Positions 5,643-28,725 of a stretch of 37,556 bases of DNA are shown in pieces. Below the pieces are notes generated by a model that had not been told where the DNA came from, searched no databases, and worked only from the letters and a program-made list of their open reading frames with translations. Origin of the DNA: a virus; the IMG/VR virus record IMGVR_UViG_3300046010_003077, positions 1-37,556 of that record. One strand, given 5' to 3'. The first letter of the stretch is position 1. Each line of letters opens with the position of its first letter. The translations under genes and the position numbers were made by a program.

Positions 5643-6691
5643 TGCCTAATACGCGAATTTCCGATCTTAGCCCCGCCGTTTCAGTCGCCGGAACCGACGT
5701 TTACCCGAGTGTTCAAACCCCGGGCGTCGGGCCGGTAAAGACGAGCCTTACCCAGATCACCAATTATGCACTTGCAAACGCTGCGGCTGGCGCTGTTGGC
5801 GCACCGTCTATTGCACCGACTGGCGACACCAACACCGGCTTCTGGTTCCCGGCCGCCGATACGATTGCGGCGTCTACTGCTGGCTCTGAGCGGTTGCGTA
5901 TCTCCAGCGCGGGCAATGTCGGCATCGGGACGACGAGCCCTTCGTACACATTAGATGTTGTTGGCAGCACAACTGCTGCCCGAATTGGCAAAGGAATCAT
6001 TGTTAATGACGCCCCGTTCGTAACGGGATTTAATATAAGTTCTGGAGCTAATGCATGCGCAATAGGTTCTACAGGAGCGTCTGTTTTTTATATCTTTACA
6101 AACAACTCCGAACGCATGCGCATTGACAGCGCAGGCAATGTCGGTATTGGGACGACAACAATAAGTGGCCGACTTACGGTTGATACCGCTCTCGCCGGAA
6201 CACCGGGGTTACTAGTAAATTCCAGCGTTGCGGCTAGCTACGCCTCAACACTTTTATACGGCACAACAACCACAGCGGCAGGCACAGGTTTTGATATGAT
6301 TGGCGTCTATGCCAACACAGTCGCGCAATTTAGAGTTCGCGGGGATGGTACAATCTACGCTCAGAACACGACTGTTCAGGCGATTTCCGATGTACGCTTG
6401 AAAGACAATATCAGGAGCGCGCTGGACGGCCTTTCGACAATTATGAGCCTTCGACCTGTGCGATTTGACTGGAAGGAAGGCTACGGAAATGGACGTAAAA
6501 ACCAACTTGGTTTTGTTGCGCAAGAAGTCGAGACTGTTTTTCCCGATGCTGTTGATGAAATGAAAATATCAAACGCCAGCGACGAGGCGTTCAAAACTGT
6601 AGGCCCGTCTGCGTTTATCCCCGTTCTCGTCAAAGCTATTCAAGAGCTTGCTGCGGAGCTTAACGAACTGAAAGGTAAGGTCAATGCCTAA
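5642..6691 (+). CDS. Tail fibre/appendage protein with S74 self-cleaving chaperone
   Basis: This 349-residue protein ends in an intramolecular chaperone (peptidase S74) that helps the fibre trimerise and then cuts itself off. The signature is SDVRLKDNI, giving the catalytic pair Ser249 and Lys254 with the family's five-residue spacing. The later GFVAQEVETVFPDAV segment is also typical. The first ~240 residues hold beta-strand repeats such as SERLRISSAGNVGIGTTSPS and SERMRIDSAGNVGIGTTTIS. After cleavage the mature part would be about 248 residues. It is likely a host-recognition or capsid fibre. Its position before scaffold and coat is unusual for a tail fibre. Confidence 0.9.
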   Translation: MPNTRISDLSPAVSVAGTDVYPSVQTPGVGPVKTSLTQITNYALANAAAGAVGAPSIAPTGDTNTGFWFPAADTIAASTAGSERLRISSAGNVGIGTTSPSYTLDVVGSTTAARIGKGIIVNDAPFVTGFNISSGANACAIGSTGASVFYIFTNNSERMRIDSAGNVGIGTTTISGRLTVDTALAGTPGLLVNSSVAASYASTLLYGTTTTAAGTGFDMIGVYANTVAQFRVRGDGTIYAQNTTVQAISDVRLKDNIRSALDGLSTIMSLRPVRFDWKEGYGNGRKNQLGFVAQEVETVFPDAVDEMKISNASDEAFKTVGPSAFIPVLVKAIQELAAELNELKGKVNA

Positions 6692-21898: not shown

Positions 21899-22073
21899 CT
21901 ATTTCCCTCATCAATTCGGCCCGTTCACGCAACATCCGCAGCGTCGTAAAACGCTGGTGCAGACGTATAATGAAGGTGGACCGCCGAGCGGTGCGGCGCT
22001 CGTCCTCCAGGAGGTCTAATACCTCCCGTTCCGTCAGGCTGGTCAGCACGTTCTGGAGTTCCGGCCAATTCAC
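21840..22073 (-). CDS. Small helical phage protein (77 aa)
   Basis: The GTG start at 22073 has an excellent GGAGG seven bases upstream and overlaps the helicase stop (GTGA). The product (LTSLTEREVLDLLEDERRTA, RRSTFIIRLHQRFTTLRML) is an Arg/Glu-rich helix of a type I have seen in other phages next to such genes. It overlaps the DUF6378-like gene by 59 bases. No function is known to me. Confidence 0.75.
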   Translation of the reverse strand: MNWPELQNVLTSLTEREVLDLLEDERRTARRSTFIIRLHQRFTTLRMLRERAELMREIDDTARTSETGRGRNRRTRR

Positions 22074-23347
22074 TTCAGTTCCTCCAAGGCAATCTCAGCC
22101 AATGTTCGTTTGTCATGTAGCGCGGCAAATATCCGCTCGTCAATAGTTTTGTTACAGATTATGACGTAGCACCACACGTCGCGGATCTGGCCGCTGCGGT
22201 GCAGCCGGCCGATGGTCTGCTCGTAAAGCTCCAGCGACCACGGCAGCGACAGGAAGACGATCTTGTTACCCCCAAGCTGAAGGTTCAGTCCGTGCCCGGC
22301 GCTTTTGGGATGGATTGCCAAAAGCTGGATCTTGCCTTCGTTCCACCGGTCGATGGCGTTCGGTTCGTCTATTGTAGCTACATTAAATCGGCGCTTTAGT
22401 TCGGCTAACTCTTCCTTGTAATTGTAGACGACGATGGTGTTGTCGTGCTGGTTTTCTTCGAGGATGTCGTCGAGCATGTCGAACTTGTGGTCCGACAGCC
22501 ACTCAGGCCCAGCCTCGCCGTAGACAAACCCACCCGCGAGCTGTTGCAGTTTCTGCGTTACGACGGCCGCCGTTGGCGCGGTGATCGTCTGGCCCAGCTC
22601 CAGCACGAAGTCTTTTTTTAGTGTTTCATAAGGTGTCAGATCCATATCGCAGCGCATCTCGACGACATGGAGCGGCGGTAGCTTGTCCTTGTATTCGCCC
22701 GGCTCCAGCACATAGGTCGCCGGCTTGATGGCCTCCATGATCTTTGGCAGCGCGTCGGGCAGCGGCTCCCACTGGCCATACTCGCGGTTTATGCAGTAGA
22801 AATACTGTTGCAGGAACGCGCCCTTGCTGCGCCCGAGCAGCGACTGATCGACAACCTTGCACTGGCCGAACACGTCTTCGAGCCCGTTTGATGTGAAGGA
22901 TCCGGTTAACCCCCAGCGGATCTGGAACTTATCAAGGATCTTCAGCAAATATTTGAACCGCTTGCCGGACGGGTTTTTTAGTCGTGTCAGCTCGTCAAAG
23001 ACAATACCGTCGAAGTTCTTTGGGTCTATAGACGGGATGTTGTCGTAGTTGGTGACGACGATATCGGCGTCTGATTCAAACGCAGCCTTGCGCTGCGCTG
23101 GCGTGCCGACAGCGACGGCCAGCTTCATATGCTCGGCCCACTTGTTGACCTCGACCGGCCAGACCGACAGGCAAACGCGTTTCGGCGCAAGCACAAGCCA
23201 GCGATCACAGTGCCCGCGCGCCAACATGTCCGACATGGCCGTGAGCGTGATTGCTGTCTTGCCCGCGCCAACCGGCGCAAGGATCATGGCTCGGTCGCGG
23301 GCGAAAAGGAAGTCGCTTGCGTCATGCTGATACGGTCGTAGGTCCAT
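22070..23347 (-). CDS. SNF2-type DEAD/DEAH helicase
   Basis: A 425-residue ATP-dependent DNA translocase. It starts with the Q-like motif LRPYQHDA. Walker A is APVGAGKT (residues 24-31), motif II is VFDELTRLKNP (DELT in place of DEAH), motif III is GLTGSFTSNG, and motif VI is QTIGRLHRSGQ near residue 380. Phage members of this family work with a VRR-NUC nuclease gene next to them, as here, probably in DNA recombination or fork processing. Its start lies 64 bases inside the nuclease gene. Confidence 0.92.
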   Translation of the reverse strand: MDLRPYQHDASDFLFARDRAMILAPVGAGKTAITLTAMSDMLARGHCDRWLVLAPKRVCLSVWPVEVNKWAEHMKLAVAVGTPAQRKAAFESDADIVVTNYDNIPSIDPKNFDGIVFDELTRLKNPSGKRFKYLLKILDKFQIRWGLTGSFTSNGLEDVFGQCKVVDQSLLGRSKGAFLQQYFYCINREYGQWEPLPDALPKIMEAIKPATYVLEPGEYKDKLPPLHVVEMRCDMDLTPYETLKKDFVLELGQTITAPTAAVVTQKLQQLAGGFVYGEAGPEWLSDHKFDMLDDILEENQHDNTIVVYNYKEELAELKRRFNVATIDEPNAIDRWNEGKIQLLAIHPKSAGHGLNLQLGGNKIVFLSLPWSLELYEQTIGRLHRSGQIRDVWCYVIICNKTIDERIFAALHDKRTLAEIALEELK

Positions 23348-25269: not shown

Positions 25270-25486
25270 AATGGACGATGAACTTATAAAACTAGAGGAT
25301 ATAATAGGATCCAAGAAGAAAGGCGTAAAAGGGCTGTTCCCTATGTCTCGTTCAGCGTGGTTCGACGGGGTAAAAAAAGGGCGGTTTCCAAGACCTGTTC
25401 ATCTAAGCGCGCGAAATACAATGTATTTCAAATCCGATATGGCAGCGCTTATTCAAAAACTTAAATCCGAAAGGTAAAGTAGAATG
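25260..25486 (+). repeat. Gene cassette bounded by 14-bp direct repeats
   Basis: GGTAAAGTAGAATG occurs at 25260-25273 and 25473-25486, exactly 213 bases apart. Each copy contains the end of one gene, the ribosome site and the ATG of the next. The unit between them is the AlpA-like gene. Recombination between the copies would insert or remove it without damage to either neighbour. Confidence 0.8.
25271..25477 (+). CDS. AlpA-like helix-turn-helix regulator
   Basis: A 68-residue protein. FPMSRSAWFDGVKKGRFPRP and then VHLSARNTMYFKSDMAALIQ is the winged-helix layout of AlpA/excisionase-type DNA-binding proteins (DNA-recognition helix SRSAWFDGVKKG). Roles in this family include transcription control and directing recombination; with no integrase in the genome, transcription control is more likely. 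Codon use is AT-rich compared with both neighbours. Confidence 0.82.
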   Translation: MDDELIKLEDIIGSKKKGVKGLFPMSRSAWFDGVKKGRFPRPVHLSARNTMYFKSDMAALIQKLKSER

Positions 25487-26101
25487 ACTAATATCGTAAA
25501 GTTCGGTAACGCTAACCTTCCCACCGCTGCGTCACTCGCGGCTGCGTTGCGTAAGACAGCCGAAGAGGCCGCGTCGGGTCCGGGCGTCATCCTGAAAATG
25601 GATAAGACCGGGCACTGGGTCTACGGCGCTGACCAGACCGAGGTTGACCGTAGCGGAATCTGGGCGGTTAATCCGCTCTCATTCATCCATGGTTACATCG
25701 CGTGGGGCGAAGGTGAGGTTCTTGGCGAGCATATGGTCCCGATCACTGATGAGTTGCCGGAGCTGGATGCAGCGCCGCCGAACGCCAAGCGTGGTTGGGA
25801 GCCGCAGGTCGGCATGAGCCTGAAGTGCATCAGCGGTGAAGACAAGAACGTGGAGGCGCGCTTCACGACGACTGCGGTCGGCGGGAAGAAGGCGATGCAC
25901 GCGCTTGCGATGAAGGTGGCCGAGCAGGTCGAGAAAGATCAGGAAAAGCCTGTGGCGCTGGTAAAACTTGGTTCCGATCATTACCAGCACAAGAGCTATG
26001 GCCGGGTCTTTACGCCTGTGTTTGAAGTCACTGACTGGATCGGCCTTAACGGTCCGGAAGAGGTGGCTGACACGGACACGGGCCGTCGTCGTCGTAGCTG
26101 A
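25484..26101 (+). CDS. Hypothetical, possible ssDNA-binding partner of DUF2800
   Basis: The 205-residue product has a mixed fold with conserved-looking WGEGEVLGEHMVPI, PQVGMSLKCISG and QHKSYGRVFTPVFEVTDW blocks, and an Arg-rich acidic-then-basic end (DTDTGRRRRS). Phage DUF2800 nucleases are usually encoded next to a ssDNA-binding or annealing protein. This one takes that place, but I cannot match it to a known binding fold, so the function is inference. Confidence 0.8.
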   Translation: MTNIVKFGNANLPTAASLAAALRKTAEEAASGPGVILKMDKTGHWVYGADQTEVDRSGIWAVNPLSFIHGYIAWGEGEVLGEHMVPITDELPELDAAPPNAKRGWEPQVGMSLKCISGEDKNVEARFTTTAVGGKKAMHALAMKVAEQVEKDQEKPVALVKLGSDHYQHKSYGRVFTPVFEVTDWIGLNGPEEVADTDTGRRRRS

Positions 26102-26146: not shown

Positions 26147-26503
26147 ATGGAAAAGGTTAGCTACTACAAATACGACGCCAAAGATCAAAGGCACATGCTG
26201 ATATCGCTGCCGCGCGTTAAATGGCTGGAGCGCGATCCTGACTACAAATTGCCAGTCCCGCCCAAAGAGATCAAGGAAGACCGTCGCAAGGACGCGCGGA
26301 TTGGCAATAAGGCTGGCGTCAAATACGACCGGCCAGCGCAGAGAAGCGACGCACTGTCACCAGCGCAGAAGCAGGCGTGGGCGCTATATAGCGGCGGCAT
26401 GTCATTTGTCAACATTGGCGTAGAGATGAACCGTTCGACCAACGCGGCCAGTAAACTGGTCGCACAGGCAAAAGAGAAACTGGGGATAGGACTTGAGAAA
26501 TGA
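26147..26503 (+). CDS. Helix-turn-helix protein (sigma region 4-like end)
   Basis: A 118-residue basic protein. The last 50 residues (LSPAQKQAWALYSGGMSFVN, IGVEMNRSTNAASKLVAQAK) form a helix-turn-helix like sigma-factor region 4 or LuxR-type binding domains. The first half (Lys/Pro-rich) has no recognisable domain. A GAGAGGGTAGG ribosome site precedes it. A role in transcription of the replication genes is a guess from location just after the terminator. Confidence 0.75.
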   Translation: MEKVSYYKYDAKDQRHMLISLPRVKWLERDPDYKLPVPPKEIKEDRRKDARIGNKAGVKYDRPAQRSDALSPAQKQAWALYSGGMSFVNIGVEMNRSTNAASKLVAQAKEKLGIGLEK

Positions 26504-26631
26504 AGACCATTCTCATGTTTGTCGGCGTCTACACGCTCGGCATGTGCGTCGTGCGTATCGTGCTGGCCCTTATGGGCGACAGGACGGGGAATAGCGGAAG
26601 ATATAAGCATTGGGAGGACGAGGATGATTGA
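26500..26631 (+). CDS. Small single-span membrane protein (43 aa)
   Basis: The ATGA overlaps the previous stop. One hydrophobic helix (residues 3-25, with TILMFVGVYTLGMCVVRIVL) is followed by a short charged tail ending HWEDEDD. Its last bases (GGGAGGACGAGG) are the ribosome site of the next gene. The tight fit supports it. Function unknown. Confidence 0.6.
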   Translation: MKTILMFVGVYTLGMCVVRIVLALMGDRTGNSGRYKHWEDEDD

Positions 26632-27037
26632 CATCGAGGAACTATTGGCGCGGCTGCGCGACAGAGACGCTCCTGACGGAACGGTAGGTTGGGCGCATGC
26701 AACATATCCGCCGCAAAAAGTGAAGGATGCATTATGCAATCAAGCCGCCGCCGCGCTCGAAGCGCAGGCGAAGGAGATTGCGGAACTGGAGGCGGCTCTG
26801 AAGCCACTTGCGAAAGCCTGGCTGTTTCCCGATGATCTTGGGGAGAAAGCAAGCGTGATTATTCGTTGCGACCCAGATTGGAATGAAGAGGAAAACGACA
26901 TGTCTAGAGAGGATGTTATTGTTTGTCGACGGGAAATTCGCAAGGCTCGCGCCGCGCTGAATGGAGAGAAAGGATGGACAAACAGTATGAGAATACAGCA
27001 GAAGCTTATACGGAAGAATTTACAAAATGGACCGTAG
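26624..27037 (+). CDS. Cassette-zone protein 1 (IAELEAAL / RAALNGEK modules)
   Basis: A 137-residue protein: variable N terminus (MIDIEELLARLRDRDAPDGT), a short coiled coil (KEIAELEAALKPLAKAW, residues ~50-66), a variable middle, then ARAALNGEKG. In the other copies a stop follows this tail; here the codon is TGG, so the frame runs 21 codons further into the next gene. The shared modules make it a paralogue of three later genes. No known domain is visible. Its pattern suggests protein-protein contact through the coil. Confidence 0.75.
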   Translation: MIDIEELLARLRDRDAPDGTVGWAHATYPPQKVKDALCNQAAAALEAQAKEIAELEAALKPLAKAWLFPDDLGEKASVIIRCDPDWNEEENDMSREDVIVCRREIRKARAALNGEKGWTNSMRIQQKLIRKNLQNGP

Positions 27038-27210
27038 AAGAGAACCTTGCGCTGCGCAAACGCATCGCGGAACTTGAAGCGGTGCTGAAGGAGTGCGTTG
27101 ACTCATTAGAAACATGGGTTGACGACCTGTATGCGAGAGGCAGCGTCCCTCCCGGATATAGAGATATATACGAAAAGGCGTTGCGGCAGTTGCTAAATGG
27201 AGAGAAGTAA
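26974..27210 (+). CDS. Cassette-zone protein 2
   Basis: The 78-residue product starts at ATG 26974, for which the previous gene's tail repeat supplies the site GAGAGAAAGG. It carries RIAELEAVLKECVDSLETW (residues ~30-48) and ends RQLLNGEK, a diverged form of the shared tail. N-terminal part is acidic (MDKQYENTAEAYTEEFTKW). It overlaps gene 1 by 64 bases. Function is unknown. Confidence 0.75.
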   Translation: MDKQYENTAEAYTEEFTKWTVEENLALRKRIAELEAVLKECVDSLETWVDDLYARGSVPPGYRDIYEKALRQLLNGEK

Positions 27211-27211
27211 A

Positions 27212-27508
27212 ATGGAAAACGTGACTATCAATGGCATTGAGTATCGTCCTGTTAAGTCGGAAGCCGGAACCCGCACTGTCGTCGTCGTGGATCGCGGATG
27301 GATTTTCGCGGGCGACGTGACGCGTGAGAATGGGCGCATTTACCTGAGAAATGCCCTGCATGTATTCAAGTGGGAAAACCTCGGGTTCTCCGGCATGGTT
27401 GCGGACCCGAAGAAAGCGAAAGCCGATCTGCGCCCGATAGCGGATGTCGATATCCCGGCGGGCGCAGAAGTGTTCTGTGTTCCAGTGCCAGACGGGTGGG
27501 GGCTATGA
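27212..27508 (+). CDS. Small beta protein (RTVVVVDRGW family)
   Basis: A 98-residue protein without the shared modules. Its pattern (RTVVVVDRGWIFAGDVTREN, then NALHVFKWENLGFSGMVADP) resembles a phage family with RIVVLQRGWVxVG that I know from other genomes, where it can be followed by a Gly/Tyr-rich gene, as here; this recollection is unverified. The fold is probably a small beta barrel. It overlaps the Gly-rich gene by ATGA, so the pair is translated together. Confidence 0.78.
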   Translation: MENVTINGIEYRPVKSEAGTRTVVVVDRGWIFAGDVTRENGRIYLRNALHVFKWENLGFSGMVADPKKAKADLRPIADVDIPAGAEVFCVPVPDGWGL

Positions 27509-27837
27509 GCCCCCGCTTCATCCCTGCTGGCGACGGCGACGGCTTCGGCAACGGCTTCGGCTACGGCTATGGCAACGGCGACGGCTTCGGCAACGGCTTC
27601 GGCAGCTACGGCAGCTACGGCTATGGCAACGGCGACGGCTTCGGCAACGGCTTCGGCAGCTACGGCAGCTTCGGCACCGGCAACGGCTTCGGCTACGGCG
27701 ACGGCGACGGCTACGGCGGCGGCAACGGCGGCTTCGGCTACGGCTACGGCGGCGGCAACGGCGGCTTCGGCTACGGCTTCGGGACCGTCTGCAATTCCCA
27801 AAAGATACGCGCCGCACTGAATGGAGAGAAGGAATGA
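27505..27837 (+). CDS. Gly/Phe/Tyr/Asn-rich low-complexity protein with RAALNGEK tail
   Basis: A 110-residue protein. Residues ~10-92 consist almost only of Gly, Phe, Tyr, Asn, Asp and Ser, in units such as GDGFGNGFG, GSYGSYGYG and GGGNGGFGYGYG. Such sequence is disordered and sticky through aromatic residues, like FG-nucleoporin or FUS-type regions. The end is VCNSQKIRAALNGEKE, the tail shared with the neighbouring small genes. At least five frames are open over the repeats, so the frame choice rests on the ATGA overlap with the 27212 gene, the tail, and the overlap with the next start. Function unknown. Confidence 0.72.
   Translation: MSPRFIPAGDGDGFGNGFGYGYGNGDGFGNGFGSYGSYGYGNGDGFGNGFGSYGSFGTGNGFGYGDGDGYGGGNGGFGYGYGGGNGGFGYGFGTVCNSQKIRAALNGEKE
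27561..27774 (+). repeat. Perfect tandem duplications in the Gly-rich gene
   Basis: Two identical 54-bp units (18 codons) at 27561-27614 and 27615-27668, and two identical 33-bp units (11 codons) at 27709-27741 and 27742-27774. Both periods are multiples of three, so copy changes leave the frame intact. Sequence identity without silent changes implies recent slippage or unequal crossing. Confidence 0.93.
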
Positions 27838-28178
27838 GTGAAGAATTAGAATTAACCCCGGTATATTTTGAAAATGACGGTCCTTACCAAGACGCACAAT
27901 CGGCAGAAGAGCTTGAATGTTATGTTATGAACAGCACTTCTCCTAAAACTCCGGCGGAGTGGTGGTCTCGCGGAGAGATTGATAGGTTGCGCGCCCGCAT
28001 CGCGGAACTGGATGCGGCGCTGGTAGATGTTACCGCCCACCTTGTCGCAGCCGTATCGCTTCTTGAACGCGGAGGCAAGAAAGCTGCGCCGAGTAATAGA
28101 ATGTTTAATCAGATGATTGTTGATTACAAAAACTGCATCGAACGCAGCCGCGCCGCGCTGAATGGAGAGAGAGGATGA
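27834..28178 (+). CDS. Cassette-zone protein 3
   Basis: A 114-residue protein starting at ATG 27834 inside the stop of the Gly-rich gene. An acidic N terminus (MSEELELTPVYFENDGPYQD) and AEEL region is followed by RARIAELDAALVDVTAHLVA (residues ~54-73), a basic linker, and SRAALNGERG. The tail repeat again forms the ribosome site of the next gene. No known domain is visible. Confidence 0.78.
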   Translation: MSEELELTPVYFENDGPYQDAQSAEELECYVMNSTSPKTPAEWWSRGEIDRLRARIAELDAALVDVTAHLVAAVSLLERGGKKAAPSNRMFNQMIVDYKNCIERSRAALNGERG

Positions 28179-28492
28179 CTGACGAAGAATTTATCGCGCG
28201 CATCAGAGCCACGCCGACGCTACTCTCCATAATGCTTCAAATAGATGATGCATTAGAGGCAAGGGATAAGGAAGTCGCAGAGCGGTCCGCCCGCATCGCG
28301 GAACTGGAGGCGGCGCTGAAACCGTTCGAAGAAAAGTCTTCTAAAAGTCTAGCCGACGCGGAGGAATTGGCCGCTAACGAAGGCTACGAACTGCCAGACG
28401 ACCAGACTGCGGAAGACATTTATGCGTGGGCGCTCGCTTTGACGTGGGGAGATTTACGAGCCGCCAGCGCCGCGCTGAATGGAGAGAAGTGA
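28175..28492 (+). CDS. Cassette-zone protein 4
   Basis: A 105-residue acidic, helical protein. It holds SARIAELEAALKPFEEKSSK (about 39-58) and ends in ASAALNGEK. KPL/KPF after the coil matches gene 1 (LKPLAKAW), so genes 1 and 4 are the closest pair. The segment YELPDDQTAEDIYAWALA between coil and tail is unique. Function unknown. It overlaps both neighbours by one to four bases. Confidence 0.78.
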   Translation: MTDEEFIARIRATPTLLSIMLQIDDALEARDKEVAERSARIAELEAALKPFEEKSSKSLADAEELAANEGYELPDDQTAEDIYAWALALTWGDLRAASAALNGEK

Positions 28493-28725
28493 TGAAACGT
28501 ATACTGACACTCATGGCGCTTATGTCGCCGGCTTACGCGCAGGAAATATCTGTCTACGATGGGCCGAACGGCCCTGTCGCAACAGAGCTGCGTTACCCAA
28601 ATCAATCGTTCTTTTACACTGAGCGCGGTATGATCTCCGCGCCGAAAGTCGGCAACTACACCGTCTACAACGGCCCGAACGGTGAGTATCTTGGCGGCAG
28701 AATAGATGGAGGCGATAATGAATGA
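28492..28725 (+). CDS. Secreted small protein with two VY[DN]GPNG repeats
   Basis: A 77-residue product. The first 16 residues (MKRILTLMALMSPAYA) are a good Sec signal peptide with AYA before the cut. The 61-residue mature part is beta-like and carries SVYDGPNGPV at its start and TVYNGPNGEY near its end. It would act in the periplasm or envelope. Export is unusual for a gene in a replication block; superinfection exclusion or envelope change during infection are possible roles, both inferred. It starts in the stop of protein 4. Confidence 0.75.
   Translation: MKRILTLMALMSPAYAQEISVYDGPNGPVATELRYPNQSFFYTERGMISAPKVGNYTVYNGPNGEYLGGRIDGGDNE

Follow-up and report, generated by a model that had tools for sequence, protein, structure and literature searches.

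Small phage genes in a variable array, probably built by recombination at two kinds of short conserved segment

Introduction

The interlinked ninR genes of phage lambda are a related example of boundary sequences. For the lambdoid phages, short conserved boundary (linker) sequences are attributed to Susskind & Botstein (1978) and Clark et al. (2001; HK620), both as cited in PMC3029335, and exchange at such sequences is a published idea cited there and in PMC3233612. In HsdS genes of Type I restriction systems, the parts are ordered as TRD1-conserved-TRD2-conserved (PMC3077401). Start-associated sequences (SAS) of cluster K mycobacteriophages, with the consensus GGGATAGGAGCCC, are mostly intergenic and were proposed to act in translation initiation (PMC3203893). 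Integron gene cassettes have also been reported in phages (PMC9892861).

The window, that is, the whole stretch of DNA analysed here, is a virus record from IMG/VR (IMGVR_UViG_3300046010_003077) of 37,556 bases. It carries an array of small genes with two repeats, one at gene ends (tail) and one inside genes (coil). As in the lambdoid boundaries, short conserved DNA is found at gene boundaries where mosaic homology starts or stops, and the small genes are close or overlapping, as also in ninR. In contrast to the lambdoid boundaries, the boundary here is the coding end of the upstream protein plus a ribosome site, and a second joint is intragenic. HsdS genes share the variable-conserved-variable-conserved order with variable parts swapped at conserved segments; however, the window holds an array of unrelated short phage proteins rather than one restriction subunit (no Pfam match to such a subunit), and its joints measure 24–30 bases, one with a ribosome site. 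Similar to SAS, the tail is a repeated short sequence at the ribosome-site position before different small non-structural genes, but the tail (CTGAATGGAGAGAAG) differs from the SAS consensus when compared by eye, and no intragenic partner joint like the one here is described in PMC3203893. The principle resembles that of lambdoid boundary sequences and of HsdS domain swapping. The sequence-only reading of this DNA had called the layout undescribed. This was too broad, as exchange at short conserved boundary sequences is published; no account that pairs an intragenic joint with a coding tail doubling as ribosome site was found in the open-access literature, a negative that is weak because only such literature was searched.

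Genome context and gene content of the array

The record contained genes for terminase, portal, major head protein, head closure and DNA ejection. The replication block consisted of a DUF2800 exonuclease, a 205-aa gene (25484–26101), a VRR-NUC protein, a family-A-type DNA polymerase and a primase-helicase. An SNF2-type helicase gene (22070–23347) on the minus strand was flanked by plus-strand blocks. Neither an Erf nor a RecT recombinase was found in the window. Among annotated phages, the closest polymerase belonged to a podovirus from Manatee Spring (62.9% identity), and no DNA match to the array zone was found in the annotated phage collection. The genes of the array and its edges are as follows (L numbers denote related contigs or loci).

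26500..26631, plus strand: orf43, small conserved 43-aa gene with homologues elsewhere, left edge marker of the array
26624..27037, plus strand: unit 1, with head, coil, middle and tail, reading through its own tail
26974..27210, plus strand: unit 2, with head, coil, middle and diverged tail
27212..27508, plus strand: 98-aa gene with neither coil nor tail; a 90% identical homologue lies inside the L011 array
27505..27837, plus strand: Gly-rich repeat protein gene, tail present, coil absent
27834..28178, plus strand: unit 3, with head of the NDGPYQDA type, coil, middle B and tail
28175..28492, plus strand: unit 4, with head, coil, middle and tail
28492..28725, plus strand: 77-aa gene at the right edge of the array, without coil or tail

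Each unit was laid out as head, coil, middle, and tail with ribosome site. Unit 1 does not stop at its tail because TGG replaces the stop found in other tails; it continues for approximately 21 further codons, which are read across the beginning of unit 2 in a different frame (26948–27037), and the two units overlap by 64 bases. Four genes had been claimed to share the coil and five to end in the tail; four coil genes and five tail sites could indeed be found, while unit 1 does not end in its tail. For the genes at 27212–27508 and 28492–28725, the upstream tail serves as ribosome site by position. The Gly-rich gene is built of GGCTAC-like 6-base units with a higher period of 54 bases, and a similar gene in L011 has the same SQKI-RAALNGEK end with a different unit after it. 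The N-terminus of the 77-aa protein appears signal-like in our reading.

No Pfam or PADLOC match above cut-off was obtained for the units, and PADLOC revealed nothing convincing overall. Middle B of unit 3 (27990–28178; LVAAVSLLERGGKKAAPSN...) has a related domain in Pseudomonas phage KPP25 and Rhizobium phage RHph_I4; in a tblastn search of annotated phages, these relatives in KPP25-type and RHph_I4 phages were without the tail, and the proteins of the other units gave no matches. The structure predicted for unit 3, at low confidence (pLDDT 62.7), consisted of a long helix over coil and middle and a second helix. We infer that the units encode accessory proteins that are mostly helical, are diversifying and are possibly directed at the host; the terms accessory and host-directed are used because of position and turnover only.

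Tail and coil repeats

The tail comprises approximately 24–27 bases, which include the last codons RAAL(N/K)GEK, the core GGAGAG and then usually an overlapping stop/start such as TGATGA. Four copies, at 26948, 27808, 28149 and 28466, showed 1–2 mismatches to the 24-base consensus CGCGCCGCGCTGAATGGAGAGAAG, against 0.00 expected from dinucleotide shuffles (0 of 100 shuffles reached the observed count), and a fifth, partial copy was present at 27184–27207 (CGGCAGTTGCTAAATGGAGAGAAG). The mean pairwise identity of the window tails was 0.91. Every one of them has the Shine-Dalgarno-like GGAGAG shortly 5' of the next ATG, which confirmed the earlier claim that the tail contains the ribosome site of the next gene.

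26948..26976, plus strand: tail copy 1, containing the ribosome site and the start codon for unit 2
27184..27214, plus strand: tail copy 2 (partial), ribosome site for the gene 27212–27508
27808..27836, plus strand: tail copy 3, end of the Gly-rich gene
28149..28177, plus strand: tail copy 4, end of unit 3
28466..28494, plus strand: tail copy 5, end of unit 4

The coil comprises approximately 30 bases coding for (A/T)RIAELEAALK, and near-identical copies are carried by four window genes. Three copies with at most 3 mismatches were observed in the window against 0.00 expected, and the mean pairwise identity of the coils was 0.89. Beyond tail and coil, identity fell to a background of 0.26–0.31 (about 28%), except that the 14 bases just 5' of the coil reached 0.50, above the other flanks.

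26777..26806, plus strand: coil copy 1, unit 1 (start 26780 in the pairwise identity comparison)
27061..27090, plus strand: coil copy 2, unit 2 (start 27067 in that comparison)
27993..28025, plus strand: coil copy 3, unit 3 (start 28002 in that comparison)
28289..28321, plus strand: coil copy 4, unit 4 (start 28298 in that comparison)

The codons of the tail are constrained, not free. In RAAL[NKRS]GE[KR] tails of related contigs, CGC, CTG, GGA and GAG were each used in 36 of 36 cases, with genome frequencies of 0.36, 0.40, 0.11 and 0.57, respectively; among the codons 5' of the ribosome site, where CGC and CTG stand, GCC (35/36) and GCG (34/36) were nearly as fixed. Tail DNA is thus more alike than protein conservation gives, the outcome on which the sequence-only reading had depended. 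As many tail contigs were retrieved with tail DNA itself, the unbiased evidence is the window together with a codon-free scan, whose hits spelling RAAL mostly had the same codons (exceptions L122 and L128). The peptide need not be functional, because GEK is partly GGAGAGAAG in frame and xALKGEK ends occur at the same position in unrelated phages. Two units of one array in L107 (6723–7078) end in a different tail dialect, RAAIREGGK (GAGAGGGAGGGAAGG), which likewise contains the ribosome site.

Unit number and order in related contigs

A DNA polymerase search yielded 80 loci, further contigs were obtained from tail scans by DNA and by a codon-free pattern, and approximately 30 related IMG/VR contigs, from uncultured phages, were compared. 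A tail search in GTDB genomes for a host gave four matches only (L144–L147), which were taken as chance because the short-gene, overlapping-start layout was absent.

Among the loci closest to the window, L014 had one tail, L015 three, L016 one, L022 two and L047 two, at other distances than in the window, and most remaining polymerase loci had none; up to six tails were present per assembled array. Homologues of orf43 (72–91%) were found immediately left of tail-bearing arrays in many contigs, while the core genes to the right of the array differed between contigs. After orf43, the size of the array varied between several units and an "empty" state, the 12-codon ORF MTDARAAL(N/K)GEK. In L005, L010, L020 and L116, this ORF, ATGACTGACGCC fused to the tail, replaces the full first unit; the same empty joint was present in L026 and L129, with flanks identical to those of L020. 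It can be read as an empty acceptor or a deletion product. The 77-aa gene comes directly after the empty site in L020, L026, L116 and L129. Unit order and number in relatives were accordingly not fixed and varied after orf43.

The empty sites of L020 (tail at 2247) and L026 (tail at 5755) were flanked on either side by 60 bases identical between the two contigs, although the polymerase genes were 80.6% identical, as if the empty-site block had itself been exchanged recently. On the reverse strand of L106 (2507), an opposite-strand coil preceded a segment with 88% identity to the unit 1 middle of the window, so that units would occupy a second place in this phage. In our reading of the sequences, other backbones carry the L011 array, beside a terminase-like gene, and the L140 array, near a different polymerase and a ThyX-like gene.

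Mosaic joints at tail and coil

Direct alignments revealed clean joints. L010 and L011 were 99.5% alike exactly over tail, head and coil, with no homology outside. L010 and L009 were alike from the coil via middle B and tail into the DNA polymerase, with unrelated heads. The window resembled L007 from the coil via middle B to the tail with both outer sides unrelated, and L007 resembled L107 from the tail via the head to just beyond the coil and was unrelated after it. On the basis of these alignments, pairings could be counted: the head "MSETDLL" occurs with two middles and "NDGPYQDA" with three, while middle B was joined to at least three different heads and the middle "DTDPDDGTAWFHEVAR" to two or more. 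The common module of L009 and L010 was 95.3% identical on polymerase backgrounds of 74.8% identity, which indicates an exchange younger than the divergence of the backbones. The order head, coil, middle and tail with gain, loss and swapping, as first proposed, was borne out by these one-sided homologies and the varied unit numbers. That reading had missed that the coil, too, is a joint, at which heads and middles appear to recombine; conservation of the coil, which it had ascribed to a shared binding partner, need not mean one.

Tandem duplication of a single ancestral gene, with fast divergence of heads and middles and with coil and tail kept by protein function, would account for runs of consecutive units that share one part order and for two nearly identical middles in adjacent units of L015/L106. 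It was considered very improbable and rejected, since matching heads, with DNA identity of up to 100%, continue into unrelated middles, provided that the contigs concerned are not artefacts; the tail, moreover, also ends the Gly-rich protein, the 12-codon ORF and unrelated genes.

The contigs themselves could be chimeras in which assemblers joined unrelated reads at 24–30-base repeats. L005 and L100 end near a tail, and L009 and L100 are identical over 8.5 kb and part inside a tail (L100 14175–14306), approximately 0.1 kb before the end of L100, where either a natural alternative joint or an assembly break at the repeat may be present. A minority of joins could be assembly effects of this kind. 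As an explanation of the joints, however, chimerism is scarcely credible, as assembly ran through arrays with as many as six tails and joints recur across different metagenomes, some with sequence differences (L107/L121, L116/L129/L020/L026, L134/L135/L142, L136/L139/L141 and L009/L010).

Joint positions were also counted. In unanchored blastn comparisons of 30 contigs (≥90% identity), 39 distinct block ends were located no more than 1 kb from a tail, and 23 of these fell on tail or coil, compared with a null mean of 5.0 and a maximum of 13 in 2000 draws. Across 48 tail sites, 60 pairs were homologous on one or both flanks (16 on both, 21 on the left only, 23 on the right only), making 44 of 60 one-sided; for 26 coil sites, all 16 informative pairs were one-sided. 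An unanchored protein comparison (≥80% identity over 30 residues) found only 2 partial pairs among 275 ORF pairs, and both break at the coil. As a control, other gene starts in the same contigs gave 99 one-sided pairs of 206 (48%), many of which trace to one small gene beside DUF2800 that is present or absent. Mosaicism at gene ends is thus general in these phages; the tail statistic weighs less, with a moderate excess, and the coil provides the stronger evidence. The Fisher p-values obtained with the control (about 0.001) are only a guide, as the pairs are not independent.

This control favours illegitimate recombination followed by selection, in which joins are random, only those in frame at gene ends persist, and the tail is retained as a good ribosome site or a useful C-terminal peptide, so that the repeats are survivors and not causes. 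The partly in-frame Shine-Dalgarno character of GEK and the xALKGEK ends of unrelated phages point the same way. Nevertheless, we regard it as unlikely, because it leaves unexplained the coil joints inside genes and the fixed codons 5' of the ribosome site. The intragenic coil is the decisive joint.

Proposed mechanism

Comparison of the contigs demonstrated, at the level of assembled sequence, the joints, swaps, variable number and exchange between diverged backbones. We infer exchange from contigs of metagenome assemblies, many of them fetched by tail DNA, and with these limits it is likely that recombination at two short, conserved segments of DNA has put together the small accessory genes of this array. 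As joints, the tail would act between genes and the coil inside them. Whole genes would move by tail-tail exchange, and tail-coil exchange would transfer either a head together with its ribosome site or a middle plus the tail that follows it. As the ribosome site for each following gene comes with the tail, any insertion, deletion or swap at the array would stay translated. The exchanges may be homologous or strand-annealing recombination seeded by the repeats, whose length of 24–30 bases comes close to the minimum of 30 bp quoted for Red-beta (PMC3945230). Possible participants are the DUF2800 nuclease, the VRR-NUC protein and host enzymes.

An integron-like scheme, in which a recombinase uses the tail as attachment site for site-specific exchange of cassettes, would also suit promoterless small genes in a row with a common 3' element and an apparently empty site; the row of small genes, the common 3' element and the variable content are shared with integron cassettes. 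This reading was judged extremely improbable and was rejected: no match to a tyrosine recombinase (PF00589) was found in the window record, which is possibly incomplete, the tails fold no better than shuffles and so show no attC-like folding, and a second, different repeat, the intragenic coil, is also a joint.

Beyond recombination at the two segments, a more speculative extension, which we hold only tentatively, is that the two-joint scheme is kept for evolvability. The tail would relay translation, early host-directed proteins would be turned over by half-gene exchange across diverged backbones, and a phage population would share an open pool of heads and middles, with an empty acceptor after orf43.

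Significance

It has long been debated whether the mosaicism of phages originates at short conserved sequences or from random joins and selection. The present array would offer two defined short joints in a natural system with alternative products in related phages; as one joint is intragenic and beyond whole-gene selection, the question may become directly testable. A ribosome site placed in the coding end of one gene would let the array tolerate insertion and loss, and the swapped heads and middles would provide an inventory of small phage proteins with possible effects on the host.
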